Part shown: piece after piece, positions 821 through 60,937 of the stretch
Layout: every line of letters begins with the position of its first letter
Numbering within the stretch: position 1 is the first letter of the stretch
Assembly (NCBI RefSeq): GCF_000003605.2
Contig: NW_003134283.1
Span: 38,968 to 102,967, forward strand
Origin: Saccoglossus kowalevskii
Lineage: Eukaryota; Hemichordata; Enteropneusta; Harrimaniidae
Length of the DNA: 64,000 nucleotides
Direction of reading: 5' to 3'
The notes under the pieces: generated by a model
What the model was told of the DNA's origin: nothing
Databases searched by the model: none
What the model saw: the letters and a program-made list of their open reading frames with translations, nothing else
Translations under genes and position numbers: made by a program

Positions 821-840
821 TACGGTGTGTTAACAGCTTA

Positions 841-14966: not shown

Positions 14967-14986
14967 CGCGATTTTCCGCGATTTTC
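14967..14986. repeat. 10 bp tandem duplication
   Basis: CGCGATTTTC is present twice in direct succession (14967-14976 and 14977-14986). No other unit in the window has this, and unit 43, its otherwise close twin, lacks it. The event therefore postdates the copying between 17 and 43, or was lost in 43. Confidence 0.9.
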
Positions 14987-24312: not shown

Positions 24313-25612
24313 CGCGATTTTCCGCTATAAATGATTGACATCACAGTAAGAAAGAATGCAGGAACGTTGTTTTATATGTTTTGCATGTGTGTGATGAAAA
24401 AAAAATCAACAGCTTGTTTACTGAGGGAGTCTCCCATGCAAGTACTAACCACGCCCGATTGTGCTTTAATTTAAACATGTGTCAGTGAACTAAACACACA
24501 GCTGAATGGATTATTTGAAATTAAGCCGAATTGGTGGCTATTTCATGTTATTGGAAGTTTTGAAATCGATATCGCTGGCACAGGTAACTTCTAGAATTGA
24601 CCTATGACCTCTACATACTTGGAGTAACAGTACGGTAACTTAACAGTATTTAAAAAAATATTTATTCACATTTTCGAACTTTTACCTATGAGACTTGTTA
24701 ATATGATATCACAGGTACCAATTCCGAATGAAACTACCAACTTTACAATCCCTTTTCACAACTTTGTAACTAATTTTTGTCGATTTTTCGGTTGGCTGTT
24801 GTGATAATCTGCTTATATATGAGGCATTATCGATACACTTACCTAATGTTTTCAATATTCAACTGCGGGGTTGTCATTACAATGACTTAGGATAAATATA
24901 CAAGCTTCTTCGCCAACATTTCGTTCGTTTTTTCAACTTTGCACACTGTTTTCTAACAGTTTACAGTCAGCTCATGTGAACATCTATAGGCAGCTTCCAA
25001 CTGATTTTATTAAATTTGTCGACTTTACAACTGCGCGTTTTTATATGCCAACAAATTAGGTCATACATACAAATACATCTACCAACTTTGTAATAACTTT
25101 GCACAACTTTACAATCGCTTTCACAACTTTGTAACCATTTTTTGTCGCTTTTTCGGTTGGCTGTTGTGATAATCTACTTATATATGAGGCATTATCGATA
25201 CATTTACTTAATGTTTTCAACATTTAACTGCGGGGTTGTCATTACAATGACTTAGGATAAATATACAAGCTTCTTCGCCAACATTTCGTTCGTTTTTTCA
25301 ATTTTGCACCCTGTTTTTTAACAGATTACAGTCAGCTCATGTAAACATCGATAGGCAGCTTCCAACTGATTTTATTAAATTTGTCGACTTTACAACTGCG
25401 CGTTTCTATATGCCAACAACTTAGGTCATACATACAAATACATCTACCAACTTTGTAATAACTTTGCACAACTTTGCAATCACTTTAAACAATTTTGAAC
25501 GTTGTGTTAACAGCTTAAAACCCACTACGTGCCGACGACATAAACAACTTGTTCTTGAAAATTAGAAGGATTTTGAAAACTTTTTATTAAATTAAAATAG
25601 TTACAACAATTC
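24313..25612 (+). repeat. Monomer 27: 1300 bp hybrid unit
   Basis: The unit proceeds normally to about offset 798, then jumps back to about offset 433 and completes again, so ~366 bp are present twice. The first part is a diverged A-like sequence (CATGTTATTGGAAG, ACATGTGTCAGTG). The second part resembles unit 28 (AATCTACTTAT, AAACATCGATAGG). Confidence 0.95.
25101..25124. repeat. Crossover junction of hybrid unit 27
   Basis: GCACAACTTT from the distal subrepeat block is followed by ACAATCGC from the internal block. The shared CAACTTT makes the exact breakpoint ambiguous by a few bases. One T is missing afterwards (CGCTTTCAC rather than CGCTTTTCAC). Confidence 0.9.
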
Positions 25613-26535
25613 CGCGATTTTCCACTATAAATGATTGACATCACAGAAAGAAAGAATGCAGGAACGTTGTTTTATATGTTTTACATGTGTGTGATGAAAA
25701 AAAAATCAACAGCTTGTTTACTGAGGGAGTCTCCCATGCAAGTACTAACCACGCCCGATTGTGCTTTACTTTAAACATTTGTCGGTGACCTAACCACACA
25801 GGTGCATGGATTATTTGGAGTTAAGCCGAATTGGTGGCTATTTCATGTTTTTGGAAGTTTTAAAATCGATATCGCTGGCACAGGTAACTTCTAGAATTGA
25901 CCTATGACCTCTACATACTTGGAGTTACAGTACGGTAATTTAACAGTATTTAAACAAATATTTATTCACATTTTCGAACTTTTAACCATGAGACTTGTTA
26001 ATATGATATCACAGGTACCAATTTCGAATGAAACTACCAACTTTACAATCGCTTTTCACAACTTTGTAACCATTTTTTGTCGCTTTTTCGGTTGGCTGTT
26101 GTGATAATCTACTTATATATGAGGCATTATCGATACATTTACTTAATGTTTTCAACATTTAACTGCGGGGTTGTCATTACAATGACTTAGGATAAATATA
26201 CAAGCTTCTTCGCCAACATTTCGTTCGTTTTTTCAACTTTGCACCCTGTTTTTTAACAGATTACAGTCAGCTCATGTAAACATCGATAGGCAGCTTCCAA
26301 CTGATTTTATTAAATTTGTCGACTTTACAACTGCGCGTTTCTATATGCCAACAACTTAGGTCATACATACAAATACATCTACCAACTTTGTAATAACTTT
26401 GCACAACTTTGCAATCACTTTAAACAATTTTGAACGCTTAAAACCCACTACGTGCCGACGACATAAACAACTTGTTCTTGAAAATTAGAAGGATTTTGAA
26501 CACTTTTTATTAAATTAAAATAGTTACAACAATTC
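25613..26535 (+). repeat. Monomer 28 (family A, 12 bp deletion)
   Basis: GGTGGCT, TTTGGAAG, AATCTACTTAT. Near its end GAACGCTTAAAAC lacks the 12 bp GTGTGTTAACAG step (about 26434). The 66-codon frame is open at 25904-26104. Confidence 0.95.
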
Positions 26536-27488
26536 CGCGATTTTCCACTATAAATGATTGACATCACAGTAAGAAAAAATGCAGGAACGTTGTTTCATAA
26601 GGAACGTTGTTTTATACGTTTTACATGTGTGTGATGAAAATAAATTCAACAGCTTGTTTACTGAGGGAGTCTCCCATGCAAGTACTAACCACGCACGATT
26701 GTGCTTTACTTTAAACATTTGTCGGTATCCTAACCACACAGGTGCATCAACTATTTGAATTTAAGCCGATTTGGCGGCTATTTCATGTTTTTGCATGTTT
26801 TAAAATCGATATCGCTGGCACAGGTAACTTCTAGAATTGACCTATGACCTCTACATACTTGGAGTAACAGTACGGTAATTTAACAGTATTTAACAAAACT
26901 ATTTATTCACATTTTCGAACTTTTAACTATGAGACTTGTTAATATGATATCACAGGTACCAATTCCGACTGAAACTACCTACTTTACAATCGCTTTTCAC
27001 AACTTTGTAACTAATTTTTGTCGATTTTTCGGTTGGCTGTTGTGATAATCTGCTTATATATGAGGCATTATCGGTACATATACTTAATGTTTTCAACATT
27101 TAACTGCGGGGTTGTCATTACAATGACTTAGGATAAATATACAAGTATCTTCGCCAACATTTCGTTCGTTTTTTCAACTTTGCACCCTGTTTTCTAACAG
27201 TTTACAGTCAGCTCATGTGAACATCTATAGGCAGCTTTCAACTGATTTTATTAAAATTGTCGACTTTACAACTGCGCGTTTCTATATGCCAACAACTTAG
27301 GTCATACATACGAATACATCTACCAACTTTGTAATAACTTTGCACAACTTTGCAATCACTTTAAACAACTTTGAACGGTGTGTTAACAGCTTAAAACCCA
27401 CTACGTGCCGACGACATAAACAACTTGTTCTTGAAAATTAGAAGGATTTTGAAAACTTTTTATTAAATTAAAATAGTTACAACAATTC
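26536..27488 (+). repeat. Monomer 29 (family C, 17 bp insertion)
   Basis: C markers with CATCAACTATTTG. The 3' half has TTATCGGTACATATAC and AAGTATCTTCG, which recur in unit 31, two units away. Confidence 0.95.
26584..26612. repeat. 17 bp partial duplication of GGAACGTTGTTT
   Basis: GGAACGTTGTTT occurs at 26584 and again at 26601, separated by CATAA. The same 17 bp offset occurs in units 52 and 65 (there with TGTAA), so it is one event that has been copied and then diverged. Confidence 0.9.
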
Positions 27489-28424
27489 CGCGATTTTCCA
27501 CTATAAATGATTGACATCACAGTAAGAAAAAATGCAGGAACGTTGTTTTATATGTTTTACATGTGTGTGATGAAAATAAATTCAACAGCTTGTTTACTGA
27601 GGGAGTCTCCCATGCAAGTACTAACCACGCACGATTGTGCTTTACTTTAAACATTTGTCGGTATCCTAACCACACAGGTGCATCAACTATTTGAATTTAA
27701 GCCGATTTGGCGGCTATTTCATGTTTTTGCATGTTTTAAAATCGATATCGCTGGCACAGGTAACTTCTAGAATTGACCTATGACCTCTACATACTTGGAG
27801 TAACAGTACGATAATTTAACAGTATTTAACAAAACTATTTATTCACATTTTCGAACTTTTAACTATGAGACTTGTTAATATGATATCACAGGTACCAATT
27901 CCGACTGAAACTACCAACTTTACAATCGCTTTTCACAACTTTGTAACTAATTTTTGTCGATTTTTCGGTTGGCTGTTGTGATAATCTGCTTATATATGAG
28001 GCATTATCGATACATTTACTTAATGTTTTCAACATTTAACTGCGGGGTTGTCATTACAATGACTTAGGATAAATATACAAGCTTCTTCGCCAACATTTCG
28101 TTCGTTTTTTCAACTTTGCACCCTGTTTTCTAACAGTTTACAGTCAGCTCATGTAAACATCGATAGGCAGCTTCCAACTGATTTTATTAAAATTGTCGAC
28201 TTTACAACTGCGCGTTTCTATATGCCAACAACTTAGGTCATACATACGAATACATCTACCAACTTTGTAATAACTTTGCACAACTTTGCAATCACTTTAA
28301 ACAACTTTGAACGGTGTGTTAACAGCTTAAAACCCACTACGTGCCGACGACATAAACAACTTGTTCTTGAAAATTAGAAGGATTTTGAAAACTTTTTATT
28401 AAATTAAAATAGTTACAACAATTC
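27489..28424 (+). repeat. Monomer 30 (family C)
   Basis: Standard C unit. ACGATAATTT replaces ACGGTAATTT, and the 3' end has the A-type AAACATCGATAGGCAGCTTCC followed by C-type AAAATTG: a small conversion patch of about 30-60 bp. Confidence 0.95.
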
Positions 28425-29361
28425 CGCGATTTTCCGCTATAAATGATTGAAATCACAGTAAGAAAGAATGCAGGAATGTTGTTTTATATGTTTTACATGT
28501 GTGTGATGAAAAAAAAATCAACAGCTTGTTTACTGAGGGAGTCTCCCATGCAAGTACTAACCACGGCCGATTGTGCTTTACTTTAAACATTTGTCGGTAT
28601 CCTAACCACACAGGTGCATCAACTATTTGAATTTAAGCCGATTTGGCGGCTATTTCATGTTTTTGCATGTTTTAAAATCGATATCGCTGGCACAGGTAAC
28701 TTCTAGAAATTGACCTATGACCTCTACACACTTGGAGTAACAGTACGGTAATTTAACAGTTTTTAACAAAAATATTTATTCACATTTTCGAACTTTTAAC
28801 TATGAGACTTGTTAATATGATATCACAGGTACCAATTCCGAATGAAACTACCAACTTTACAATCGCTTTTCACAACTTTGTAACCATTTTTTGTCGATTT
28901 TTCGGTTGGCTGTTGTGATAATCTGCTTATATATGAGGCATTATCGGTACATATACTTAATGTTTTCAACATTTAACTGCGGGGTTGTCATTACAATGAC
29001 TTAGGATAAATATACAAGTATCTTCGCCAACATTTCGTTCGTTTTTTCAACTTTGCACCCTGTTTTCTAACAGTTTACAGTCAGCTCATGTGAACATCTA
29101 TAGGCAGCTTTCAACTGATTTTATTAAATGTGTCGACTTTACAACTGCGCGTTTCTATATGCCAACAACTTAGGTCAAACATACGAATACATCTACCAAC
29201 TTTGTAATAACTTTGCACAACTTTGCAATCACTTTAAACAACTTTGAACGGTGTGTTAACAGCTTAAAACCCACTACGTGCCGACGACATAAACAACTTG
29301 TTCTTGAAAATTAGAAGGATTTTGAAAACTTTTTATTAAATTAAAATAGTTACAACAATTC
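28425..29361 (+). repeat. Monomer 31 (C/E mosaic)
   Basis: Opens CCGCTATAAATGATTGAAATC, then C-type TATCCTAACC and CATCAACTATT. CAGTTTTTAAC and CCGAATG follow. The 3' half shares TTATCGGTACATATAC with unit 29. Private TCTAGAAATTG (+1) and CACACTTGG. Confidence 0.95.
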
Positions 29362-30292
29362 CGCGATTTTCCACTATAAATGATTGACATCACAGTAAGA
29401 AAGAATGCAGGAACGTTGTTTTATATGGTTTACATGTGTGTGATGAAAAAAAAATCAGCAGCTCGATTACTGAGGGAGTCTCACATGCAAGTACTAACCA
29501 GGCCCCATTGTGCTTTACCTTAAATATTTGTCGGTGACCTAGCCACACAGGTGCATGAATTATTTGAAATTAAGCCGATTTGGCGGCTATTTCATGTTTT
29601 TGCATGTTTTAAAATCGATATCGCTGGCACAGGTAACTTCTAGAATTGACCTATGACCTCTACATACTTGGAGTAACAGTACGGTAATTTAACAGTGTTC
29701 AACAAAAATATTTATTCACATTTTCGAACTTTTAACTATGAGACTTGTTAATATGATATCACAGGTACCAATTCCGAATGAAACTACCAACTTTACAATC
29801 GCTTTTCACAACTTTGTAACTATTTTTTGTCGATTTTTCGGTTGGCTGTTGTGATAATCTGCTTATATATGAGGCATTATCGATACATTTACTTAATGTT
29901 TTCAACATTTAACTGCGGGGTTGTCATTACAATGACTTAGGATAAATATACAAGCTTCTTCGCCAACATTTCGTTCGTTTTTTCAACTTTGCACACTGTT
30001 TTCTAACAGTTTACAGTCAGTTCATGTAAACATCTATAGGCAGCTTTCAACTGATTTTATTAAATTTGTCGACTTTAGAACTGCGCGTTTCTATATGCCA
30101 ACAACTTAGGTCATACATACGAATACATCTACCAATTTTGTAATAACTTTGCTCAACTTTGCAATCACGTTAAACAACTTTGAACGTTAACAGCTTATAA
30201 CCCACTACGTGCCGACGACATAAACAACTTGTTCTTGAAAATTAGAAGGATTTTGAAAACTTTTTATTAAATTAAAATAGTTACAACAATTC
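29362..30292 (+). repeat. Monomer 32 (D mosaic)
   Basis: CTCGATTAC and TCTCACATG with AGGCCCCATTG and CCTTAAATATTTG (the latter shared with unit 39). GAACGTTAACAGC and CCAATTTTGTAAT link its end to units 2 and 38. Confidence 0.95.
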
Positions 30293-31228
30293 CGCGATTT
30301 TCCACTATAAATGATTGACATCACAGTAAGAAAGAATGAAGGAACGTTGTTTTATATGTTTTACATGTGTGTGATGAAAAAAAATTCAACAGCTCGTTTA
30401 CTGAGGGAGTCTCCCATGCAAGTACTAACCACGCACTATTGTGCTTTACTTTAAACATTTGTCGGTATCATAACCACACAGCTGCATCAACTATTTGAAT
30501 TTAAGCCGATTTGGCGGCTATTTCATGTTTTTGCATGTTTTAAAATCGATATCGCTGGCACAGGTAACTTCTAGAATTGACCTATGACCTCTACATACTT
30601 GGAGTAACAGTACGGTAATTTAACAGTTTTTAACAAAAATATTTATTCACATGTTCGAACTTTTAACTATGAGACTTGTTAATATGATATCACAGGTACC
30701 AATTCCGAATGAAACTACCAACTTTACAATCGCTTTTCACAACTTTGTAACTAATTTTTGTCGATTTTTCGGTTGGCTGTTGTGATAATCTGCTTATATA
30801 TGAGGCATTATCGATACATTTACTTAATGTTTTCAACATTTAACTGCGGGGCTGTCATTACAATGACTTAGGATTAATATACAAGCTTCTTCGCCAACAT
30901 TTCGTTCGTTTTTTCAACTTTGCACACTGTTTTCTAACAGTTTACAGTCAGCTCATGTGAACATCTATAGGCAGCTTTCAACTGATTTTATTAAAATTGT
31001 CGACTTTACAACTGCGCGTTTCTATATGCCAACAACTTAGGTCATACATACGAATACATCTACCAACTTTGTAATAACTTTGCACAACTTTGCAATCACT
31101 TTAAACAACTTTGAACGGTGTGTTAACAGCTTAAAACCCACTACGTGCCGACGACATAAACAACTTGTTCTTGAAAATTAGAAGGATTTTGAAAACTTTT
31201 TATTAAATTAAAATAGTTACAACAATTC
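30293..31228 (+). repeat. Monomer 33 (C mosaic)
   Basis: GAATGAAGG as in unit 3, so the 32/33 boundary repeats the 2/3 boundary. Private CGCACTATTG, TATCATAACC, GGGGCTGTC and GGATTAATAT. Confidence 0.95.
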
Positions 31229-32166
31229 CGCGATTTTCCACTATAAATGATTGACATCACAGTAAGAAAGAATGCAGGAACGTTGTTTTATATGTTTTAA
31301 ATGTGTGTGATGAAAAAAAATTCAACAGCTCGATTACTGAGGGAGTCTCACATGCAAGTACTAACCACGCCCGATTGTGCTTTACTTTAAACATTTGTCG
31401 GTGACCTAACCACACAGCTGCATGGATTATATGAAATTAAGCCGATTTGGCGGCTATTTCATGTTTGTGCATGTTTTAAAATCGATATCGCTGGCACAGG
31501 TAACTTCTAGAATTGACCTATGACCTCTACATACTTGGAGTAACAGTACGGTAATTTAACAGTATTTAACAAAAACAATTATTCACATTTTCGAACTTTT
31601 AACTATGAGACTTGTTAATATGATATCACAGGTACCAATTCCGAATGAAACTACCAACTTTACAATCGCTTTTCACAACTTTGTAACTAATTTTTGTCGA
31701 TTTTTCGGTTGGCTGTTGTGATAATCTGCTTATATATGAGGCATTATCGACACATTTACTTAATGTTTTCAACATTTAACTGCGGGGTTGTCATTACAAT
31801 GACTTAGGATAAATATACAAGCTTCTTCGCCAACATTTCGTTCGTTTTTTTCAACTTTGCACACTGTTTTTCTAACAGTTTACAGTCAGCTCATGTGAAC
31901 ATCTATAGGCAGCTTTCAACTGATTTTATTAAATTTGTCGACTTTACAACTGCGCGTTTCTATATGCCAACAACTTAGGTCATACATACGAATACATCTA
32001 CCAACTTTGTAATAACTTTGCACAACTTTGCAATCACTTTAAACAACTTTGAACGGTGTGTTAACAGCTTAAAACCCACTACGTGCCGACGACATAAACA
32101 ACTTGTTCTTGAAAATTAGAAGGATTTTGAAAACTTTTTATTAAATTAAAATAGTTACAACAATTC
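31229..32166 (+). repeat. Monomer 34 (family D)
   Basis: CTCGATTAC, TCTCACATG, GTTTGTGCATG, TTATCGACAC. Two single-T gains in nearby homopolymers (about 31850 and 31871). Confidence 0.95.
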
Positions 32167-33100
32167 CGCGATTTTCCGCTATAAATGATTGACATTACAG
32201 TAAGAAAGAATGCAGGAACATTGTTTTATATTTGTTACATGTGTGTGATGAAAGAAAAATTCAACAGCTTGGTTGCTGAGGGAGTATCCCATGCAAGTAC
32301 TAACCAGGCCCGATTGTTCTTTACTTTAAACATTTGTCGGTGACCTAACCACACTGCTGCATGGACTATTTGAAATTAAGCTGATTTGGCGGCTATTTCA
32401 TGTTTTTGCATGTTTTAAAATCGATATCGCTGGCACAGGTAACTTCTAGAATTTACCTATGACCTCTACATACTTGGAGTAACAGTACGGTAATTTAACA
32501 GTATTTACAAAAATATTTATTGACATTTTCGAACTTTTAACTATGAGACTTGTTAATATGATATCACAGGTACCAATTCCGAATGAAACTACCAACTTTA
32601 CAATCGCTTTTCACAACTTTGTAACTAATTTTTGTCGATTTTTCGGTTGGCTGTTGTGATAATCTGCTTATATATGAGGCATTATCGATACATTTACTTA
32701 ATGTTTTCAACATTTAACTGCGGGGTTGTCATTACAATGACTTAGGATAAATATACAAGCTTCTTCGCCAACATTTCCTTCGTTTTTTCAACTTTGCACC
32801 CTGTTTTGTAACAGTTTACAGTCAGCTCATGTGAACATCTATAGGCAGCTTTCAACTGATTTTATCAAATTTGTCGATTTTACAACTGCGCGTTTCTATA
32901 TGCCAACAACTTAGTCATACATACGAATACATCTACCAACTTTGTAATAACTTTGCACAACTTTGCAATCACTTTAAACAACTTTGAACGGTGTGTTAAC
33001 AGCTTAAAACCACTACGTGCCGACGACATAAACAACTTGTTCTTGAAATTTAGCAGGATTTTGAAAACTTTTTATTAAATTAAAATAGTTACAACAATTC
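32167..33100 (+). repeat. Monomer 35 (family H)
   Basis: GACATTACAG, GCTTGGTTGCTG, GAGTATCCC, GGACTATTTG and AAGCTGATTTGG occur as a set only in units 35 and 37. ATTTACAAAAATATTTATTGAC shortens the A-rich tract. Several private single-base losses near the end (CTTAGTCATAC, AAACCACTAC). Confidence 0.95.
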
Positions 33101-38691: not shown

Positions 38692-39618
38692 CGCGATTTT
38701 CCGCTATGTATGATTCACATCACAGTAAGAAAGAATGCAGGAACGTTGTTTTATATGTTTTACATGTGTGTGATAAAAAAACATTCAACAGCTTGTTTAC
38801 TGAAGGAGTCTCCCATGCAAGTACTAACCACGCCCAATTGTGCTTTACTTTAAACATTTGTCGGTGACCTAACCACATAGCTGCAAGGATTATTTGAAAT
38901 TAAGCCGAATTGGCGGCTATTTCATGTTTTTGCATGTTTTAAAATCGATATTGCTGGCACATGTAACTTCTAGAATTGACCTATGACCTCTACATACTTG
39001 GAGTACAGTACGGTAATTTACAGTTTTTACAAAATATTTATTCACATTTTCGAACTTTTACTATGAGACTTGTTAATATGATATCACAGGTACCATTCCG
39101 AATGAAACTACCAACTTTACATCGCTTTTCACAACTTTGTAACTTTTTTGTCGATTTTTCGATTGGCTGTTGTGATAATCTGCTTATATATGAGGTATTA
39201 TCGATACATATACTTAATGTTTTCAACATTTAACTGCGGGGTTGTCATTACAATGACTTAGGATAAATATACAAGCTTCTTCGCCAACATTTCGTTCGTT
39301 TTTTCAACTTTGCACCCTGTTTTCTAACAGTTTACAGTCAGCTCATGTGAACATCTATAGGCAGCTTTCAACTGATTTTATTAAATTTGTCGACTTTGCA
39401 ACTGCGCATTTCTTTATGCCAACAACTTAGGTCATACAAACGAATACATCTACCAACTTTGTAATAACTTTGCACAACTTTGCAATCACTTTAAACAACT
39501 TTGAACGGTGTGTTAATAGCTTAAAACCCACTACGTGCCGACGACATAAACAACTTGTTCTTGAAAATTAGAAGGATTTTGAAAACTTTTTATTAAATTA
39601 AAATAGTTACAACAATTC
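38692..39618 (+). repeat. Monomer 42 (family E, with deletion cluster)
   Basis: CCGCTATGTATGATTCAC opening, CGCCCAATTG, ACATAGCTGCAAGG, CACATGTAAC. The 3' part (TTTGCAACTGCGC, CATACAAACG) matches unit 16. Open frames at 38976-39233 (plus) and 39038-39229 (minus) exist only because of the deletion cluster. Confidence 0.95.
39004..39146. other. Second cluster of single-base deletions, mostly A from AA (suspected consensus error)
   Basis: GAGTACAG, ATTTACAG, TTTTTACAAAATATT, TTTTACTATG, GTACCATTCC and TTTACATCGC each lack one A relative to nearly all other copies. About eight losses occur in 143 bp, then the sequence returns to normal. Confidence 0.75.
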
Positions 39619-40555
39619 CGCGATTTTCCGCTATAAATAATTGACATCACAGTAAGAAAGAATGCAGGAACGTTGTTTTATATGTTTTACATGTGTGTGA
39701 TGAAAAAAAAATCAACAGCTTGTTTACTGAGGGAGTCTCCCATGCAAGTACTAACCACGCACGATTGTGCTTTACTTTAAAAATTTTTCAGTATACTAAC
39801 CACACAGGTGCATCAATTATTTGAATTTAAGCCGATTTGACGGCTATTTCATGTTTTTGCATGTTTTAAAATCAATATCGCTGGCACAGGTAACTTCTAG
39901 AATTGACCTATGACCTCTACATACTTGGAGTAACAGTACGGTAATTTAACAGTATTTAACAAAACTATTTATTCACATTTTCGAACTTTTAACTATGAGA
40001 CTTGTTAATATGATATCACAGGTACCAATTCCGAATGAAACTACCAACTTTACCATCGCTTTTCACAACTTTGTAACTATTATTTGTCGTTTTTTCGGTT
40101 GGCTGTTGTGATAATCTGCTTATATATGAGGCATTATCGATAAATATACTTAATGTTTTCAACATTTAACTGCGGGGTTGTCATTACAATGACTTAGGAT
40201 AAATCTACAAGCATCTTCGCCAACATTTCGTTCGTTTTTTTCAACTTTGCACCCTGTTTTCTAACAGTTTACAGTCAGCTCATGTGAACATCTATAGGCA
40301 GCTTTCAACTGATTTTATTAAAATTGTCGACTTTACAACTGCGCGTTTCTATATGCCAACAACTTAGGTCATACATACGAATACATCTACCAACTTTGTA
40401 ATAACTTTGCACAACTTTGCAATCACTTTAAACAACTTTGAACGGTGTGTTAACAGCTTAAAACCCACTACGTGCCGACGACATAAACAACTTGTTCTTG
40501 AAAATTAGAAGGATTTTGAACACTTTTTATTAAATTAAAATAGTTACAACAATTC
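39619..40555 (+). repeat. Monomer 43 (twin of unit 17)
   Basis: Carries the full unit 17 marker set (CAGTATAC, GATTTGACGG, AATCAATATCG, TACCATCG, CTATTATTTGTCG). Identity ends near 40320, where it switches to C-type AAAATTG. The 21 bp deletion and 10 bp duplication of unit 17 are absent. Confidence 0.95.
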
Positions 40556-46171: not shown

Positions 46172-47104
46172 CGCGATTTTCCGCTATAAAAAAATGACAT
46201 CACAGTAAGAAAGAATGCAGGAACGTTGTTTTATATGTTTTACATGTGTGTGATGAAAAAAAAATCAACAGCTTGTTTACTGAGGGAGTCTCCCATGCAA
46301 GTACTAAGCAGGCCCGATTGTGCTTTACTTTAAACATTTGTCGGTGACCTAACCACATAGCTGCAAGGATTATTTAAATAGCCGAATTGGCCGCTATTTC
46401 ATCTTTTTGCATGTTTTAAAATCGATATTGCTGGCACAGGTAACTTCTAGAATTGACCTATGACCTCTACATACTTGGAGTAACAGTACTGTAATTTAAC
46501 AGTTTTTAACAAAAATATTTATTCACATTTTCGAACTTTTAACTATGAGACTTGTTAATATGATATCACAGGTACCAATTCCGAATGAAACTACCAACTT
46601 TACAATCGCTTTTCACAACTTTGTAACTATTTTTTGTCGATTTTTCGGTTGCCTGTTGTGATAATCTGCTTATATATGAGGTATTATCGATACATTTACT
46701 TAATGTTTTCAACATTTAACTGCGGGGTTGTCATTACAATGACTTTAGGATAAATATACAAGCTTCTTCGCCAACATTTCGTTCGTTTTTCAACTTTGCA
46801 CACTGTTTTCTAACAGTTTACAGTCAGCTCATGTGAACATCTATAGGCAGCTTTCAACTGATTTTATTAAATTTTTGGACTTTAGAACAGCGCATTTCTA
46901 TATGCCAACAACTTAGGTCATACATACGAATACATCTACCAACTTTGTAATAACTTTGCACAACTTTGCAATCACTTTAAACAACTTTGAACGGTGTGTT
47001 AACAGCTTAAAACCCACTACGTGCCGACGACATAAACAACTTGTTCTTGAAAATTAGAAGGATTTTGAAAACTTTTTATTAAATTAAAATAGTTACAACA
47101 ATTC
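46172..47104 (+). repeat. Monomer 50 (family B)
   Basis: ATTTAAATAGCCG, GGCCGCT, CATCTTTTTGC, GTACTGTAA as in unit 16. AAATTTTTGGACTTTAG as in unit 4. Opens with CTATAAAAAAATGAC. Confidence 0.95.
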
Positions 47105-48404
47105 CGCGATTTTCCACTATAAATGATTGACATCACAGTAAGAAAAAATGCAGGAACGTTGTTTTATATGTTTTACATGTGTGGGATGAAAATAAATTCA
47201 ACAGCTTGTTTACTGAGGGAGTCTCCCATGCAAGTTCTAACCACGCACGATTGTGCTTTACTTTAAACATTTGTCGGTGACCTAACCACATAGCTGCAAG
47301 GATTATTTGAAATTAAGCCGAATTGGCGGCTATTTCATGTTTTTGCATGTTTTAAAATCGATATTGCTGGCACAGGTAACTTCTAGAATTGACCTATGAC
47401 CTCTACATACTTGGAGTTACAGTACGGTAATTTAACAGTATTTAAACAAATATTTATTCACATTTTCGAACTTTTAACTATGAGACTTGTTAATATGATA
47501 TCACAGGTACCAATTCCGAATGAAACTACCAACTTTACAATCGCTTTTCACAACTTTGTAACCATTTTTTGTCGCTTTTTCGGTTGGCTGTTGTGATAAT
47601 CTGCTTATATATGAGACATTATCGATACATTTACGTAATGTTTTCAACATTTAACTGCGGGGTTGTCATTACAATGACTAAGGATAAATATACAAGCTTC
47701 TTCGCCAACATTTCGTTCGTTTTTTCAACTTTGCACACTGTTTTCTAACAGTTTACAGTCAGCTCATGTGAACATCTATAGGCAGCTTTCAACTGATTTT
47801 ATTAAAATTGTCGACATTACAACTGCGCGTTTCTATATGCCAACAACTTAGGTCATACATACGAATACATCTACCAACTTTGTAATAACTTTGCACAACT
47901 TTACAATCGCTTTTCACAACTTTGTAACCATTTTTTGTCGCTTTTTCGGTTGGCTGTTGTGATAATCTACTTATATATGAGGCATTATCGATACATTTAC
48001 TTAATGTTTTCAACATTTATCTGCGGGGTTGTCATTACAATGATTAGGATAAATATACAAGCTTCTTCGCCAACATTTCGTTCGTTTTTTCAACTTTGCA
48101 CCCTGTTTTTTAACAGTTTACAGTCAGCTCATGTAAACATCGATAGGCAGCTTCCAACTGATTTTATTAAATTTGTCGACTTTACAACTGCGCGTTTCTA
48201 TATGCCAACAACTTAGGTCATACATACGAATACATCTACCAACTTTGTAATAACTTTGCACAACTTTGCAATCACTTTAAACAAATTTGAACGGTGTGTT
48301 AACAGCTTAAAACCCACTACGTGCCGACGACATAAACAACTTGTTCTTGAAAATTAGAAGGATTTTGAAAACTTTTTATTAAATTAAAATAGTTACAACA
48401 ATTC
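47105..48404 (+). repeat. Monomer 51: 1300 bp hybrid unit
   Basis: C-type opening (AGAAAAAATGC, CGCACG), E-type middle (ACATAGCTGCAAGG, ATATTGC), then A-type from GAGTTACAG with the 66-codon frame at 47396-47596. After the internal jump the second part has AATCTACTTAT, TTTATCTGCGG and AAACATCGATAGG. Confidence 0.95.
47891..47914. repeat. Crossover junction of hybrid unit 51
   Basis: TTGCACAACTTT joins ACAATCGCTTTTCAC exactly as in units 27 and 64. The flanking AATCTACTTAT downstream is also shared by all three, which points to one ancestral exchange. Confidence 0.9.
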
Positions 48405-49354
48405 CGCGATTTTCCACTATAAATGATTGACATCACAGAAAGAAAGAATGCAGGAACGTTGTTTTGTAAGGAACGTTGTTTTATATGTTTTACATGTGTG
48501 TGATGAAAAAAATCAACAGCTTGTTTACTGAGGGAGTCTCCCATGCAAGTACTAACCACGGCAGATTGTGCTTTAATTTAAACATTTGTCGGTGACCTAA
48601 CCACACAGGTGCATGGATTATTTAAAATTAAGCCGAATTGGTGGCTATTTCATGTTTTTGGAAGTTTTAAAATCGATATCGCTGGCACAGGTAACTTCTA
48701 GAATTGACCTATGACCTCTACATACTTGGAGTTACAGTACGGTAATTTAACAGTATTTAAACAAATATTTATTCACATTTTCGAACTTTTAACTATGAGA
48801 CTTGTTAATATGATATCACAGGTACCAATTCCGAATGAAACTACCAACTTTACAATCGCTTTTCACAACTTTGTAACCATTTTTTGTCGCTTTTTCGGTT
48901 GGCTGTTGTGATAATCTGCTTATATATGAGACATTATCGATACATTTACGTAATGTTTTCAACATTTAACTGCGGGGTTGTCATTACAATGACTTAGGAT
49001 AAATATACAAGCTTCTTCGCCAACATTTCTTTCGTTTTTTCAACTTTGCACCCTGTTTTCTAACAGTTTACAGTCAGCTCATGTAAACATCGATAGGCAG
49101 CTTCCAACTGATTTTATTAAATTTGTCGACTTTACAACTGCGCGTTTCTACATGCCAACAACATAGGTCATAAATACAAAGACATCTACCAACTTTGTAA
49201 TAACTTTGCACAACTTTTCAATCACTTTAAACAACTTTGAACGGTGTGTTAACAGCTTAAAACCCACTACGTGCCGACGACATAAACAACTTGTTCTTGA
49301 AAATTAGAAGGATTTTGAAAACTTTTTATTAAATTAAAATAGTTACAACAATTC
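48405..49354 (+). repeat. Monomer 52 (family A, 17 bp insertion, open frame)
   Basis: 950 bp. CGGCAGATTG, TTTAATTT, GGTGGCT, TTTGGAAG, GAGACATTATCG, ACGTAATG. Near copy of unit 65 at 12533 bp as far as TTTCTTTCG. 66-codon frame at 48711-48911. 3' changes include AACATAGGTCATAAATAC. Confidence 0.95.
48453..48481. repeat. 17 bp partial duplication of GGAACGTTGTTT
   Basis: GGAACGTTGTTT occurs at 48453 and 48470 with TGTAA between. The form is identical to that in unit 65 and slightly different from unit 29. Confidence 0.9.
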
Positions 49355-51225: not shown

Positions 51226-52157
51226 CGCGATTTTCCGCTATAAATGATTGACATCACAGTAAGAAAGAATGCAGGAACGTTGTTTTATATGTTTTACATG
51301 TGTGTGATAAAAAAAACAATCAACAGCTTGTTTACTGAGGGAGTCTCCCATGCAAGTACTAACCACGCCCGATTGTGCTTTACTTTAACATTTGTCGGTG
51401 ACCTAACCACATAGCTGCAAGGATTATTTGAATTTAAGCCGAATTGGCGGCTATTTCATGTTTTTGCATGTTTTAAAATCGATATTGCTGGCACAGGTAA
51501 CTTCAGAATTGACCTATGACCTCTACATACTTGGAGTAACAGTACGGTAATTTAACAGTTTTTAACAAAAATATTTATTCACATTTTCGAACTTTTAACT
51601 ATGAGACTTGTTAATATGATATCACAGGTACCAATTCCGAATGAAACTACCAACTTTACAATCGCTTTTCACAACTTTGTAACCATTTTTTGTCGATTTT
51701 TCGATTGGCTGTTGTGATAATCTGCTTATATATGAGGCATTATCGATACATATACTTAATGTTTTCAACATTTAACTGCGGGGTTGTCATTACAATGACT
51801 TAGGATAAATATACAAGCTTCTTCGCCAACATTTCGTTCGTTTTTTCAACTTTGCACCCTGTTTTCTAACAGTTTACAGTCAGCTCATGTAAACATCTAT
51901 AGGCAGCTTCCAACTGATTTTATTAAATTTGTCGACTTTACAACTGCGCGTTTCTATATGCCATCAACTTAGTCATACATACAAATACATCTACCAACTT
52001 TGTAATAACTTTGCACAACTTTGCAATCACTTTAAACAACTTTGAACGGTGTGTAACAGCTTAAACCCACTACGTGCCGACGACATAAACAACTTGTTCT
52101 TGAAAATTAGAAGGATTTTGAACACTTTTTATTAAATTAAAATAGTTACAACAATTC
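51226..52157 (+). repeat. Monomer 55 (family E)
   Basis: ACATAGCTGCAAGG, GAATTGGCGG, ATATTGC, TTCGATTGG. A few scattered single-base losses (TTTAACATTTG, AACTTCAGAATTG, CTTAGTCATAC, GCTTAAACCC) shorten it to 932 bp and may also be consensus errors. Confidence 0.95.
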
Positions 52158-53092
52158 CGCGATTTTCCACTATAAATGATTGACATCACAGAAAGAAAGA
52201 ATGCAGGAACGTTGTTTTATATGTTTTACATGTGTGTGATGAAAAAAAATTCAACAGCTTGTTTACTGAGGGAGTCTCCCATGCAAGTACTAACCACGCC
52301 CGATTGTGCTTTACTTTAAACATTTGTCGGTGACCTAACCACACAGGTGCATGAATTATTTGAAATTAAGCCGAATTGGTGGCTATTTCATGTTTTTGGA
52401 AGTTTTAAAATCGATATCGCTGGCACAGGTAACTTCTAGAATTGACCTATGATCTCTACATACTTTGAGTTACAGTACGGTAATTTAACAGTATTTAAAC
52501 AAATATTTATTCACATTTTCGAACTTTTAACTATGAGACTTGTTAATATGATATCACAGGTACCAATTCCGAATGAAACTACCAACTTTACAATCGCTTT
52601 TCACAACTTTGTAACCATTTTTTGTCGCATTTTCGGTTGGCTGTTGTGATATTCTGCTTATATATGAGGCATTATCGATACATTTACTTAATGTTTTCAA
52701 CATTTAACTGCGGGGTTGTCATTACAATGACTTAGGATAAATATACAAGCTTCTTCGCCAACATTTCGTTCGTTTTTTCAACTTTGCACCCTGTTTTTTT
52801 ACAGTTTACAGTCAGCTCATGTAAACATCGATAGGCAGCTTCCAACTGATTTTATTAAATTTGTCGACTTTACAACTGCGCGTTTCTATATGCCAACAAC
52901 TTAGGTCATACATACAAATACATCTACCAACTTTGTAATAACTTTGCACAACTTTGCAATCACTTTAAAGAATTTTGAACGGTGTGTTAACAGCTTAAAA
53001 CCCACTACGTGCCGACGACATAAACAACTTGTTCTTGAAAATTAGAAGGATTTTGAAAACTTTTTATTAAATTAAAATAGTTACAACAATTC
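52158..53092 (+). repeat. Monomer 56 (family A, open frame)
   Basis: First unit of the homogeneous A run. Frame at 52449-52649 with three residue changes relative to the common version. GATATTCTGC is shared with unit 64 and AAAGAATTTTG with units 57, 59 and 63. Confidence 0.95.
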
Positions 53093-54026
53093 CGCGATTT
53101 TCCACTATAAATGATTGACATCACAGAAAGAAAGAATGCAGGAACGTTGTTTTATATGTTTTACATGTGTGTGATGAAAAAAATTGAACAGCTTGTTTAC
53201 TGAGGGAGTCTCCCATGCAAGTACTAACCACGCACGATTGTGCTTTACTTTGAACATTTGTCGGTGACCTAACCACACAGGTGCATGGATTATTTGAAAT
53301 TAAGCCGAATTGGTGGCTATTTCATGTTTTTGGAAGTTTTAAAATCGATATCGCTGGCACAGGTAACTTCTAGAATTGACCTATGACCTCTACATACTTG
53401 GAGTTACAGTACGGTTATTTAACAGTATTTAAACAAATATTTATTCACATTTTCGAACTTTTAACTATGAGACTTGTTAATATGATATCACAGGTACCAA
53501 TTCCGAATGAAACTACCAACTTTACAATCGCTTTTCACAATTTTGTAACATTTTTTTGTCGCTTTTTCGGTTGGCTGTTGTGATAATCTGCTTATATATG
53601 AGGCATTATCGATACATTTACTTAATGTTTTCAACATTTAACTGCGGGGTTGTCATTACAATGACTTAGGATAAATATACAAGCTTCTTCGCCAACATTT
53701 CGTTCGTTTTTTCAACTTTGTACCCTGTTTTTTCACAGTTTACAGTCAGCTCATGTAAACATCGATAGGCAGCTTCCAACTGATTTTATTAAATTTGTCG
53801 ACTTTACAACTGCGCGTTTCTATATGCCAACAACTTAGGTCATACATACAAATACATCTACCAACTTTGTAATAACTTTGCACAACTTTGCAATCACTTT
53901 AAAGAATTTTGAACGGTGTGTTAACAGCTTAAAACCCACTACGTGCCGACGATATGAACAACTTGTTCTTGAAAATTAGAAGGATTTTGAAAACTTTTTA
54001 TTAAATTAAAATAGTTACAACAATTC
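53093..54026 (+). repeat. Monomer 57 (family A, open frame)
   Basis: Frame at 53383-53583. TTTGTACCCTG, TTTTTTCACAG and CGATATGAAC are shared with unit 63 (the first two also with 58). Private ACGGTTATTT. Confidence 0.95.
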
Positions 54027-54962
54027 CGCGATTTTCCACTATAAATGATTGACATCACAGTAAGAAAGAATGCAGGAACGTTGTTTTATATGTTTTACAT
54101 GTGTGTGATGAAAAAACAATTCAACAGCTTGTTTACTGAGGGAGTCTCCCATGCAAGTACTAACCACGCCCGATTGTGCTTTACTTTAAACATTTGTCGG
54201 TGACCTAACCACACAGGTGCATGGATTATTTGAAATTAAGCCGAATTGGTGGCTATTTCATGTTTTTGGAAGTTTTAAAATCGATATCGCTGGCACAGGT
54301 AACTTCTAGAATTGACCTATGACCTCTACATACTTGGAGTTACAGTACGGTAATTTAACAGTATTTAAACAAATATTTATTCACATTTTCGAACTTTTAA
54401 CTATGAGACTTGTTAATATGATATCACAGGTACCAATTCCGAATGAAACTACCAACTTTACAATCGCTTTTCACAATTTTGTAACAATTTTTTGTCGCTT
54501 TTTCGGTTGGCTGTTGTGATAATCTGCTTATATATGAGGCATTATCGATACATTTACTTAATGTTTTCAACATTTAACTGCGGGGTTGTCATTACAATGA
54601 CTTAGGATAAATATACAAGCTTCTTCGCCAACATTTCGTTCGTTTTTTCAACTTTGTACCCTGTTTTTTCACAGTTTACAGTCAGCTCATGTAAACATCG
54701 ATAGGCAGCTTCCAACTGATTTTATTAAATTTGTCGACTTTACAACTGCGCGTTTCTATATGCCAACAACTTAGGTCATAAATACAAATACATCTACCAA
54801 CTTTGTAATAACTTTGCACAACTTTTCAATCACTTTAAACAACTTTGAACGGTGTGTTAACAGCTTAAAACCCACTACGTGCCGACGATATAAACAACTT
54901 GTTCTTGAAAATTAGAAGGATTTTGAAAACTTTTTATTAAATTAAAATAGTTACAACAATTC
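54027..54962 (+). repeat. Monomer 58 (family A, open frame)
   Basis: Frame at 54319-54519, common protein version but two silent changes (AAT, ACA codons) shared with units 59 and 63. GAAAAAACAATTC is shared with unit 63. CATAAATACAAATAC and CTTTTCAATC resemble unit 52. Confidence 0.95.
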
Positions 54963-55897
54963 CGCGATTTTCCACTATAAATGATTGACATCACAGTAAG
55001 AAAGAATGCAGGAACGTTGTTTTATATGTTTTACATGTGTGTGATGAAAAAAAATTCAACAGCTTGTTTACTGAGGGAGTCTCCCATGCAAGTACTAACC
55101 ACGCACGATTGTGCTTTACTTTAAACATTTGTCGGTGACCTAACCACACAGGTGCATGGATTATTTGAAGTTAAGCCGAATTGGTGGCTATTTCATGTTT
55201 TTGGAAGTTTTAAAATCGATATCGCTGGCACAGGTAACTTCTAGAATTGACCTATGACCTCTACATACTTGGAGTTACAGTACGGTAATTTAACAGTATT
55301 TAAACAAATATTTATTCACATTTTCGAACTTTTAACTATGAGACTTGTTAATATGATATCACAGGTACCAATTCCGAATGAAACTACCAACTTTACAATC
55401 GCTTTTCACAATTTTGTAACAATTTTTTGTCGCTTTTTCGGTTGGCTGTTGTGATAATCTGCTTATATATGAGGCATTATCGATACATTTACTTAATGTT
55501 TTCAACATTTAACTGCGGGGTTGTCATTACAATGACTTAGGATAAATATACAAGCTTCTTCGCCAACATTTCGTTCGTTTTTTCAACTTTGCACCCTGTT
55601 TTTTTACAGTTTACAGTCAGCTCATGTAAACATCGATAGGCAGCTTCCAACTGATTTTATTAAATTTGTCGACTTTACAACTGCGCGTTTCTATATGCCA
55701 ACAACTTAGGTCATACATACAAATACATCTACCAACTTTGTAATAACTTTGCACAACTTTGCAATCACTTTAAAGAATTTTGAACGGTGTGTTAACAGCT
55801 TAAAACCCACTACGTGCCGACGATATAAACAACTTGTTCTTGAAAATTAGAAGGATTTTGAAAACTTTTTATTAAATTAAAATAGTTACAACAATTC
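54963..55897 (+). repeat. Monomer 59 (family A, open frame)
   Basis: Frame at 55254-55454. TTGAAGTTAAGCC is an intermediate toward TTGGAGTTAAG of units 28 and 60. GTTTTTTTACAG is shared with unit 56. Confidence 0.95.
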
Positions 55898-56831
55898 CGC
55901 GATTTTCCACTATAAATGATTGACATCACAGTAAGAAAGAATGCAGGAACGTTGTTTTATATGTTTTACATGTGTGTGATGAAAAAAAATTCAACAGCTT
56001 GTTTACTGAGGGAGTCTCCCATGCAAGTACTAACCACGCCCGATTGTGCTTTACTTTAAACATTTGTCGGTGACCTAACCACACAGCTGCATGGATTATT
56101 TGGAGTTAAGCCGAATTGGTGGCTATTTCATGTTTTTGGAAGTTTTAAAATCGATATCGCTGCCACAGGTAACTTCTAGAATTGACCTATGACCTCTACA
56201 TACTTGGAGTTACAGTACGGTAATTTAACAGTATTTAAACAAATATTTATTCACATTTTCGAACTTTTAACTATGAGACTTGTTAATATGATATCACAGG
56301 TACCAATTCCGAATGAAACTACCAACTTTACAATCGCTTTTCACAACTTTGTAACCATTTTTTGTCGCTTTTTCGGTTGGCTGTTGTGATAATCTGCTTA
56401 TATATGAGGCATTATCGATACATTTACTTAATGTTTTCAACATTTAACTGCGGGGTTGTCATTACAATGACTTAGGATAAATATACAAGCTTCTTCGCCA
56501 ACAATTCGTTCGTTTTTCAACTTTGCACCCTGTTTTCTGACAGTTTACAGTCAGCTCATGTACACATCGGTAGGCAGCTTCCAACTGATTTTATTAAATT
56601 TGTCGACTTTACAACTGCGCGTTTCTATATGCCAACAACTTAGGTCATACATACGAATACATCTACTAACTTTGTAATAACTTTGCACAACTTTACAATC
56701 ACTTTAAACATATTTGAACGGTGTGTTAACAGCTTAAAACCCACTACGTGCCGACGACATAAACAACTTGTTCTTGAAAATTAGAAGGATTTTGAAAACT
56801 TTTTATTAAATTAAAATAGTTACAACAATTC
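55898..56831 (+). repeat. Monomer 60 (family A, open frame)
   Basis: Frame at 56189-56389. TTTGGAGTTAAG as in unit 28. The 3' end is diverged: GTACACATCGGTAGG, CTGACAG, CATATTTGAACGG. Confidence 0.95.
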
Positions 56832-57766
56832 CGCGATTTTCCACTATAAATGATTGACATCACAGTAAGAAAGAATGTAGGAACGTTGTTTTATATGTTT
56901 TACATGTGTGTGATGAAAAAAAATTCAACAGCTCGATTACTGAGGGAGTCTCACATGCAAGTACTAACCACGCCCGATTGTGCTTTACTTTAAACATTTG
57001 TCGGTGACCTAACCACACAGCTGCATGGATTATTTGAAACTAAGCCGATTTGGCGGCTATTTCATGTTTGTGCATGTTTTAAAATCGATATCGCTGGCAC
57101 AGGTAACTTCTAGAATTGACCTATGACCTCTACATACTTGGAGTAACAGTACGGTAATTTAACAGTATTTAAAAAAACAATTATTCACATTTTCGAACTT
57201 TTAACTATGAGACTTGTTAATATGATATCATATGTACCAATTCCGAATGAAACTACCAACTTTACAATCGCTTTTCACAACTTTGTAACCATTTTTTGTC
57301 GATTTTTCGGTTGGCTGTTGTGATAATCTGCTTATATATGAGGCATTATCGATACATTTACTGAATGTTTTCAACATTTAACTGCGGGGTTGTCATTACA
57401 ATGACTTAGGATAAATATACAATCTTCTTCGCCAACATTTCGTTCGTTTTTTCAACTTTGCACCCTGTTTTCTAACAGTTTACAGTCAGCTCATGTGAAC
57501 ATCTATAGGCAGCTTCCAACTGATTTTATTAAATTTGTCGATTTTAGAACTGCGCGTTTCTATATGCCAACAACTTAGGTCATATATACGAATACATCTA
57601 CCAACTTTGTAATAACTTTGCACAACTTTGCAATCACTTTAAACAACTTTGAACGGTGAGTTAACAGCTTAAAACCCACTACGTGCCGACGACATAAACA
57701 ACTTGTTCTTGAAAATTAGAAGGATTTTGAAAACTTTTTATTAAATTAAAATAGTTACAACAATTC
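56832..57766 (+). repeat. Monomer 61 (family D)
   Basis: CTCGATTAC, TCTCACATG, GTTTGTGCATG, TTAAAAAAACAATTATTC. It interrupts the A run. Private ATCATATGTACC removes the GGTACC site. CAATCTTCTTCG is shared with unit 4. Confidence 0.95.
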
Positions 57767-58701
57767 CGCGATCTTCCGCTATAAATGATTGACATCACAG
57801 TAAGAAAAAATGCAGGAACGTTGTTTTATATGTTTTACATGTGTGTGATGAAAAAAATTCAACAGCTTGTTTACTGAGGGACTCTCCCATGCAAGTACTA
57901 ACCAGGCCCGATTGTGCTTTACTTTAAACATTTGTCGGTGACCTAACCACATAGCTGCAAGGACTATTTGAAATTAAGCCGAATTGGTTGCTATTTCATG
58001 TTTTTGCATGTTTTAAAATCGATATTGCTGGCACAGGTAACTTCTAGAATTGACCTATGACCTCTACATACTTGGAGTAACAGTACGGTAATTTAACAAT
58101 TTTTAATAAAAATATTTATTCACATTTTCGAACTTTTAACTATGAGACTTGTTAATATCATATCACAGGTACCAATTCCGAATTAAACTACCAACTTTAC
58201 AATCGCTTTTCACAACTTTGTAACCATTTTTTGTCGATTTTTCGATTGGCTGTTGTGATAATCTGCTTATATATGAGGCATTATCGATACATATACTTAA
58301 TGTTTTCAACATTTAACTGCGGGGTTGTCATTACAATGACTTAGGATAAATATACAAGCTTCTTCGCCAACATTTCGTTCGTTTTCTCAACTTTGCACAC
58401 TGTTTTCTAACAGTTTACAGTCAGTTCATGTGAACATCTATAAGCAGCTGTCAACTGATTTTATCAAATTTGTCGACTTTACAACTGTGCGTTTCTATAT
58501 GCCAACAACTTAGGTCATACATACGAATACATCTACCAACTTTGTAATAACTTTGCACAACTTTGCAATCACTTTAAACAACTTTGAACGGTGTGTTAAC
58601 AGCTTAACACCCACTACGTGCCGACGACATAAACAACTTGTTCTTGAAAATTAGAAAGATTTTGAAAACTTTTTATTAAATTAAAATAGTTACAACAATT
58701 C
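57767..58701 (+). repeat. Monomer 62 (family E)
   Basis: CGCGATCTTCCGC opening, ACATAGCTGCAAGG, GAATTGGTTGC, ATATTGC, TTCGATTGG. 3' end with GCTGTCAAC and ACTGTGCG as in units 5 and 19. Second non-A unit inside the A run. Confidence 0.95.
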
Positions 58702-59637
58702 CGCGATTTTCCACTATAAATGATTGACATCACAGTAAGAAAGAATGCAGGAACGTTGTTTTATATGTTTTACATGTGTGTGATGAAAAAACAATTCAAC
58801 AGCTTGTTTACTGAGGGAGTCTCCCATGCAAGTACTAACCACGCCCGATTGTGCTTTACTTTAAACATTTGTCGGTGACCTAACCACACAGGTGCATGGA
58901 TTATTTGAAATTAAGCCGAATTGGTGGCTATTTCATGTTTTTGGAAGTTTTAAAATCGATATCGCTGGCACAGGTAACTTCTAGAATTGACCTATGACCT
59001 CTACATACTTGGAGTTAATGTACGGTAATTTAACAGTATTTAAACAAATATTTATTCACATTTTCGAACTTTTAACTATGAGACTTGTTAATATGATATC
59101 ACAGGTACCAATTCCGAATGAAACTACCAACTTTACAATCGCTTTTCACAATTTTGTAACAATTTTTTGTCGCTTTTTCGGTTGGCTGTTGTGATAATCT
59201 GCTTATATATGAGGCATTATCGATACATTTACTTAATGTTTTCAACATTTAACTGCGGGGTTGTCATTACAATGACTTAGGATAAATATACAAGCTTCTT
59301 CGCCAACATTTCGTTCGTTTTTTCAACTTTGTACCCTGTTTTTTCACAGTTTACAGTCAGCTCATGTAAACATCGATAGGCAGCTTCCAACTGATTTTAT
59401 TAAATTTGTCGACTTTACAACTGCGCGTTTCTATATGCCAACAACTTAGGTCATTCATACAAATACATCTACCAACTTTGTAATAACTTTGCACAACTTT
59501 ACAATCACTTTAAAGAATTTTGAACGGTGTGTTATCAGCTTAAAACCCACTACGTGCCGACGATATGAACAACTTGTTCTTGAAAATTAGAAGGATTTTG
59601 AAAACTTTTTATTAAATTAAAATAGTTACAACAATTC
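58702..59637 (+). repeat. Monomer 63 (family A, open frame)
   Basis: Frame at 58994-59194 with Q changed to M by TTAATGTACGG. Otherwise a composite of units 57 and 58 (GAAAAAACAATTC, TTTGTACCCTG, CGATATGAAC), which suggests that a block including 57-58 was copied here. Confidence 0.95.
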
Positions 59638-60937
59638 CGCGATTTTCCACTATAAATGATTGACATCACAGTAAGAAAGAATGCAGGAACGTTGTTTTAT
59701 ATGTTTTACATGTGTGTGATGAAAAAAAATTCAACAGCTTGTTTACTGAGGGAGTCTCCCATGCAAGTACTAACCACGCCCGATTGTGCTTTACTTTAAA
59801 CATTTGTCGGTGACCTAACCACACAGGTGCATGGATTATTTGAAATTAAGCCGAATTGGTGGCTATTTCATGTTTTTGGAAGTTTTAAAATCGATATCGC
59901 TGGCACAGGTAACTTCTAGAATTGACCTATGACCTCTACATACTTGGAGTTACAGTACGGTAATTTAACAGTATTTAAACAAATATTTATTCACATTTTC
60001 GAACTTTTAACTATGAGACTTGTTAATATGATATCACAGGTACCAATTCCGAATGAAACTACCAACTTTACAATCGCTTTTCACAACTTTGTAACCATTT
60101 TTTGTCGCTTTTTCGGTTGGCTGTTGTGATATTCTGCTTATATATGAGGCATTATCGATACATATACTTAATGTTTTCAACATTTAACTGCGGGGTTGTC
60201 ATTACAATGACTTAGGATAAATATACAAGCTTCTTCGCCAACATTTCGTTCGTTTTTTCAACTTTGCACCCTGTTTTTTAACAGTTTACAGTCAGCTCAT
60301 ATAAACATCGATAGGCAGCTTCCAACTGATTTTATTAAATTTGTCGACTTTACAACTGCGCGTTTCTATATGCCAACAACTTAGGTCATACATACAAATA
60401 CATCTACCAACTTTGTAATAACTTTGCACAACTTTACAATCGCTTTTCACAACTTTGTAACCATTTTTTGTCGCTTTTTCGGTTGGCTGTTGCGATAATC
60501 TACTTATATATGAGGCATTATCGATACATTTACTTAATGTTTTCAACATTTATCTGCGGGGTTGTCATTACAATGACTTAGGATAAATATACAAGCTTCT
60601 TCGCCAACATTTCGTTCGTTTTTTCAACTTTGCACCCTGTTTTTAACAGTTTACAGTCAGCTCATGTAAACATCGATAGGCAGCTTCCAACTGATTTTAT
60701 TAAATTTGTCGACTTTACAACTGCGCGTTTCTATATGCCAACAACTTAGGTCATACATACAAATACATCTACCAACTTTGTAATAACTTTGCACAACTTT
60801 GCAATCACTTTAAACAACTTTGAACGGTGTGTTAATAGCTTAAAACCCACTACGTGCCGACGACATAAACAACTTGTTCTTGAAAATTAGAAGGATTTTG
60901 AAAACTTTTTATTAAATTAAAATAGTTACAACAATTC
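59638..60937 (+). repeat. Monomer 64: 1300 bp hybrid unit
   Basis: A-type from the start (GGTGGCT, TTTGGAAG), with the frame at 59929-60129 and GATATTCTGC as in unit 56. After the internal jump it matches the second part of unit 51 (AATCTACTTAT, TTTATCTGCGG) with TTGCGATAATC private. Confidence 0.95.
60424..60447. repeat. Crossover junction of hybrid unit 64
   Basis: TTGCACAACTTT joins ACAATCGCTTTTCAC, identical to the junction in unit 51 and, apart from one T, to unit 27. Confidence 0.9.

Follow-up and report, generated by a model that had tools for sequence, protein, structure and literature searches.

We analysed a 64,000-nucleotide stretch of DNA from Saccoglossus kowalevskii, hereafter the window, which corresponds to the final 64,000 bases of contig NW_003134283.1 (C2590, 102,967 bp). 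From 1 to 64000, on the plus strand, the window is occupied by one satellite array with a monomer of ~936 bp, and the array fills the whole contig. Three of its units are hybrids, lengthened by a partial duplication of the monomer, and they share the same internal junction; the origin of this junction and the way in which it reached its present locations are the subject of this analysis. In the assembly searched (572 Mb, 4,830 contigs), the same satellite was also found on contigs C829 (59,435 bp) and C4210 (12,957 bp). Anchor copies ~936 bp apart number 70 in the window, 112 on C2590 as a whole, 64 on C829 and 14 on C4210; thus, the three contigs carry long head-to-tail arrays of one monomer, as defines satellite DNA. 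The mean pairwise identity of the ordinary monomers is 95.7% (n = 64, i.e., the 67 units cut in one phase minus the three hybrids). At lags of 1, 2, 3, 4, 5, 8, 16, 32, 64 and 90 units, there is no minimum of differences past lag 1 of the kind expected of a higher-order repeat array, and no tRNA genes were found in the window. In the unit labels used below, W denotes C2590, while X and Y denote the reverse complements of C829 and C4210, respectively.

An ordinary monomer contains two similar motifs, P1 (CTACCAACTTTACAATCGCTTTTCAC) and P2 (TGCACAACTTTGCAATCACTTTAAAC), located ~366 bp apart. From CAACTTT onward, 25 of their 29 bases agree, the first seven being identical. In the hybrid units, the left part of P2 is joined to the right part of P1 in the shared form CACAACTTT/ACAATCGC, and the ~365 bp between the motifs are doubled, with one copy before the junction (C1) and one after it (C2). 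In each hybrid, 364-366 bp of the ~936-bp monomer have thus been duplicated in tandem. The left and right haplotypes named in the following lines, lambda and rho, are described further below.

24310..25609, plus strand: hybrid unit 27 (u27), 1300 bp
47102..48401, plus strand: hybrid unit 51 (u51), 1300 bp
59635..60934, plus strand: hybrid unit 64 (u64), 1300 bp
25102..25118, plus strand: P2-left/P1-right junction of u27
47894..47910, plus strand: P2-left/P1-right junction of u51
60427..60443, plus strand: P2-left/P1-right junction of u64
24738..25103, plus strand: C1 of u27, left haplotype lambda (common to hA, hB, x1 and x2, outside the window)
25104..25468, plus strand: C2 of u27, right haplotype rho
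47530..47895, plus strand: C1 of u51, not lambda
47896..48260, plus strand: C2 of u51, rho
60063..60428, plus strand: C1 of u64, not lambda
60429..60793, plus strand: C2 of u64, rho
25171..25181, plus strand: marker AATCTACTTAT in u27 (also at 47964 in u51, at 60497 in u64, and at 26106 and 49848 in ordinary units)
48452..48468, plus strand: 17-bp extra copy of AGGAACGTTGTTTTGTA to the right of u51
60985..61001, plus strand: 17-bp extra copy of AGGAACGTTGTTTTGTA to the right of u64

The initial annotation of this DNA described three units of exactly 1300 bp with the same junction, which is what we observed when the array was cut at TTCCGCGATTTTCC (62 exact anchor copies), the three hybrids being the sole spacings between 1100 and 1500 bp. 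Another cutting phase gave hybrid lengths of 1300, 1315 and 1316 bp, because u51 and u64 have the 17 extra bp AGGAACGTTGTTTTGTA just downstream. The junction sequence CACAACTTTACAATCGC occurs exactly three times in the window and in none of 100 dinucleotide shuffles. The downstream marker AATCTACTTAT, previously described as linked to the junction, is present in all three hybrids but is not private to them, since two of its five copies in the window lie in ordinary units; it is still associated with the hybrids (3/3 hybrid blocks vs 2/67 others, Fisher 1.8e-4). The argument that independent exchanges could not strike the same bases is not supported. Any exchange within the seven identical bases of P1 and P2 gives the same junction, so recurrence is possible on the junction alone, which is no proof of a single event.

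The sequences flanking the junction were compared as blocks C (282-bp core) and B (520-bp core), gaps being uncounted in the block differences within the window, where the background means are 10.1 differences for C blocks and 24.8 for B blocks. On the right side, u51 and u64 differ at 1/282 positions in C2 and at 1/520 in the following B, while u27 differs from these two by 3-4 positions in C2 and 8-9 in the following B. On the left side, the C1 blocks of the three hybrids differ by 11-13 positions (mean 12.3 in 282 bp), and the preceding B blocks by 14-26. Among 20,000 random triples from the window, 19 were as alike as the three hybrids in C2 and five in the following B; the corresponding numbers were 16,749 for C1 and 2,369 for the preceding B. 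The same asymmetry was recovered with FastTree from 189 C blocks of the three contigs. The post-junction C2 trio did not group with different, unrelated monomers but fell within a nine-leaf clade (support 0.813), in which six leaves are hybrid blocks and the other three ordinary, whereas the pre-junction C1 trio was spread over a 132-leaf clade. The likeness of u27, u51 and u64 sets in some 30-50 bp before the junction and extends rightwards; on the left side, even u51 and u64 resemble each other no more than random monomers do. Consequently, the proposal that a 1300-bp hybrid unit had been copied as a whole is not supported.

Considering the whole assembly, the exact junction is present not at three sites, as first proposed, but at eight: five on C2590 (hA, hB, u27, u51 and u64), two on C829 (x1 and x2) and one on C4210 (y1). 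A reversed-pattern control gave no match. A longer pattern allowing up to three mismatches gave five matches, all of them exact; the other three copies lack one base at +17, and gaps were disallowed in that search. Five of the eight hybrids (hA, hB, u27, x1 and x2) share a C1 haplotype, lambda, with 0-4 mutual differences in 282 bp and a clade support of 0.989 (FastTree). The other 184 C blocks of the three contigs are all at least six positions away from lambda C1, and none of them carries it. The right-hand marker is found in 7/8 hybrid C2 blocks vs 4/181 other blocks (Fisher 1.7e-9, with the copies treated as independent), and the four non-hybrid blocks that carry it are all found at most four units away from a hybrid.

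Full lambda and full rho, the right haplotype, occur together in hB, u27 and x2. In hA, lambda and the marker are kept and rho is lost between about +126 and +182; in x1, lambda is kept and the marker is absent, with a break between +17 and +75. On the other side, rho is kept and lambda is lost at most 31 bp from the junction in u51 and 31-47 bp from it in u64 and y1. The T at +17 is absent in hA, u27 and y1, a homopolymer place where the difference could be a sequencing error. A lambda-junction-rho founder is therefore represented on at least one side in each of the eight hybrids. When all eight were compared with 20,000 random sets, seven sets were as close in C2 and 1,806 in C1; the C1 set is not clearly close because three of its members are not lambda. 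One founding junction for the eight copies is well supported and, as to the junction, the earlier proposal of a single founding event stands, with founder haplotypes linked on both sides.

The same flanks bear on whether the junction formed recurrently, that is, whether the same imperfect repeat pair recombined repeatedly, with at least u51, u64 and y1 as separate events having a common right-hand partner. The left flanks of these three hybrids do differ from one another and from lambda, and a switch within seven identical bases means that identical junctions need not reflect descent. Nevertheless, recurrence is disfavoured by the distribution of lambda and of the marker among hybrid and other blocks, because the variants are linked on both sides of the junction, a linkage that is clear only when the five hybrids outside the window are included. 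Additionally, CAACTTT occurs several times in the P2 region, but no other P1-P2 register is seen among the 14 long irregular units recognised by anchor spacing on the three contigs, eight of which have this junction. Based on these observations, we consider recurrent formation unlikely.

Regarding the spread of the junction, copies located 12.5 or 54 kb apart would need equally long repeated blocks if they had arisen by block duplication. However, u51 and u64 (12.5 kb apart) are alike over 1,191 bp rightwards, with seven differences, and then fall to background; a 12.5-kb block was therefore not duplicated. Similarly, at a distance of 54 kb, hA and u27 have in common a tract of 1,191 bp that spans the junction and contains two differences. 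The tracts shared by other hybrid pairs range from 63 bp to about 1.7 kb; the tract of u64 and y1 scores over 2,825 bp, but its 62 differences mark it as a subfamily resemblance. Within C2590, the longest near-identical tract at eight or more units of distance scores 1,048 (C and B columns, linkers excluded). Neighbouring units have 0.11 tracts scoring at least 400 per unit pair; the figure is 0.048 for units 2-3 apart, 0.005-0.023 for those farther away and 0.018 between contigs. The mean number of differences is nearly flat past three units (lag 3/lag 32 = 0.98).

When unequal exchange alone was simulated, mean offsets of 1.25, 4 and 20 units gave longest tracts of 21,543, 12,384 and 19,567, respectively; for conversion, 1,744 and 3,907 were obtained at mean tract lengths of 500 and 1,000 bp, and a mixture of both processes gave 2,459. 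These results bear on block unequal crossover, by which large out-of-register sister exchanges would have duplicated hybrid-bearing stretches of the array that were later blurred. This is the classic satellite model (PMC8997354), and it agrees with the greater likeness of adjacent units and with the fact that the longest tracts (1,867 and 1,665) lie between near neighbours. Nevertheless, the about 1.2 kb shared by u51-u64 and by hA-u27 is at odds with simulated tracts of 12-21 kb, and the steep fall of identity with distance that small offsets produce is not seen. We regard block crossover as very improbable. In view of the short shared tracts, the flat lags and the simulations, neither block duplication nor a higher-order repeat structure is supported as the origin of the copies. 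The hybrids share short tracts between distant copies with unrelated neighbours, as short-tract gene conversion would leave them, and we read this as mostly distance-independent short-patch copying, with some local unequal exchange. Gene conversion would be the named process that fits, in preference to crossover.

Taken together, we consider it likely that a single out-of-register event at P1/P2 was followed by short-patch, gene-conversion-like copying to at least eight places. A rare out-of-register event would have joined P2 and P1, two imperfect copies of one CAACTTT-bearing motif, doubling ~365 bp of one monomer and giving a founder with lambda left of the junction and rho right of it. Short-patch exchange between repeats would then have carried the junction to no fewer than eight sites on three contigs and would also have replaced the flanks, on the left side in u51, u64 and y1 and on the right side in hA and x1.

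Several observations weigh against this scenario. The tract common to all eight hybrids is no longer than a few tens of bases; with no long tract in all of them, the founder argument depends on hB, u27 and x2 as connecting links. Rho occurs in ordinary units too, W_65056 and Y_9589 being identical to the C2 of x2, so a rho partner was available for a repeat event, a point in favour of recurrence. A lambda B block is also found at Y_12187 (four differences), where the contig ends before any junction could show. As to the copying process, among the four longest tracts at long range on C2590, three are those of the hybrids and so may be atypical of the array, and the simulations are coarse (three runs each, with diversity roughly fitted and ending at 0.036-0.069). 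Finally, neighbours are somewhat more alike than distant units (lag 1/lag 32 = 0.84), an excess that implies some local unequal exchange as well.

The chief doubt concerns the assembly. The three contigs are satellite nearly end to end, without unique anchoring sequence, and the reads of one hybrid could have been placed, or used for correction, at several sites, the shared patches then being a product of the software; the one-base homopolymer gaps at +17 in hA, u27 and y1 resemble long-read errors. On the other hand, the copies differ from one another at many sites, have different neighbours and sit on three contigs, and polishing seldom inserts 365 bp. An assembly or polishing artefact is therefore quite unlikely.

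Flank breaks within 75 bp of the junction are found on 4/16 sides, which by a rough estimate is weakly more than ~500-bp tracts would give. It is conceivable, although in our view doubtful, that the junction region is a preferred exchange end point, with the CAACTTT sub-repeats at P1/P2 acting as a recombination hotspot and the duplication outpacing neutral variants. If so, the partial duplication would move with only tens of flanking bases and would build up faster than neutral variants.

Other irregular units provide some indication of how new junctions arise. Units X 12986, Y 915 and Y 2966 contain another partial-duplication junction, one base apart, with the common variant CCGTATG:

X ~13918; Y ~1850 and ~3901: second junction with CCGTATG, in three copies on two contigs

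This was probably a second single event, copied to three places. The single irregular units are W 1857, W 35559 and X 21952. In one of these (~36284 of C2590, outside the window), a short stretch of neighbouring sequence is repeated in inverted orientation at the junction (AAACTGTTAAATTAC), as expected of template switching. Short homologies and inverted filler suggest that new junctions come from microhomology-mediated or template-switching repair, and the 365-bp founding event may likewise have been a microhomology-mediated or template-switch repair. For maize centromeres, microhomology-mediated end-joining has been argued, as reported in PMC8997354. Separately, two window units 24.6 kb apart (~14974-15500 and 39616-40142) are 99.0% identical, with an exact match of 527 bp, and constitute another long-range copied patch; only the first lacks ~21 bp within the CAACTTT sub-repeats.

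Satellite arrays undergo concerted evolution through unequal exchange, gene conversion and break-induced replication, as outlined in PMC8997354 and PMC7463522, the latter giving lengths of 50-200 bp for short conversion tracts and over 1 kb for long ones. The present array is alike in that tandem repeats are homogenised by exchange between copies, with tract lengths in the range of PMC7463522, and does not differ in kind; its particular feature is a single structural junction with informative flanks that serves as a tracer. It is ordinary concerted evolution, or satellite turnover, in which the tracer is unusually legible. The eight-copy junction, very probably of single origin and flanked by informative variants, is a natural tracer that separates copying in short patches from duplication in blocks. 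The outcome agrees with known mechanisms, making this a clear example and not a surprise.

Chimeric monomers have been described in Meloidogyne satellite DNAs, where junctions lie at short conserved motifs and illegitimate recombination is one of the mechanisms proposed (PMC3694981). The location of monomer junctions within a short conserved motif is common to both systems. In Meloidogyne, the junctions lie at a CENP-B-box-like motif, within higher-order repeats that combine different satellite families, whereas here one family undergoes partial self-duplication at a CAACTTT motif.

The monomer also contains a fragment of the 5S rRNA gene. On the minus strand, positions 12-54 of the monomer consensus correspond to nt 49-91 of the 5S rRNA gene of this genome, with 38/43 bases identical and the last 30 free of mismatches; the score is 61 vs 28 for the best of 400 shuffles:

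24429..24471, minus strand: 43-bp 5S rRNA gene fragment, example in u27

The variability of this stretch is 0.064 vs a monomer mean of 0.043, and 781/893 windows of the monomer are as low or lower. The fragment covers much of what we take to be the internal promoter of 5S genes; nevertheless, since it is more variable than the monomer average, a conserved working element is unsupported, and we regard the stretch as a fossil and not a working promoter. Rfam gave no match at E <= 1 in window positions 1-10000 and only sub-threshold matches in two short stretches (5S, 14.2 bits vs a gathering score of 38); the identification was settled by the comparison with the 5S gene of the genome itself. Beyond the 43 bp, a comparison of the satellite with the spacers of four 5S loci gave as its best result one 23-bp match (E 0.061).

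A satellite monomer containing 5S rRNA gene sequence recalls PcP190, a 5S-rDNA-derived frog satellite with ~190-bp repeats and a conserved 5S-like region of ~120 bp (PMC11675491). In PcP190-type satellites, the conserved region resembles the entire 5S transcribed region; here, unlike PcP190, the match is confined to nt 49-91, i.e., 43 bp in a 936-bp monomer. Our search of the genome for 5S rRNA genes gave 47 scored matches listed (on C3485, C2212 and C3801) from 18,217 first-look candidates, and the genes form tandem arrays whose spacing takes at least two values, ~1,139 bp on C3485 and ~1,580 bp on C2212 and C3801.

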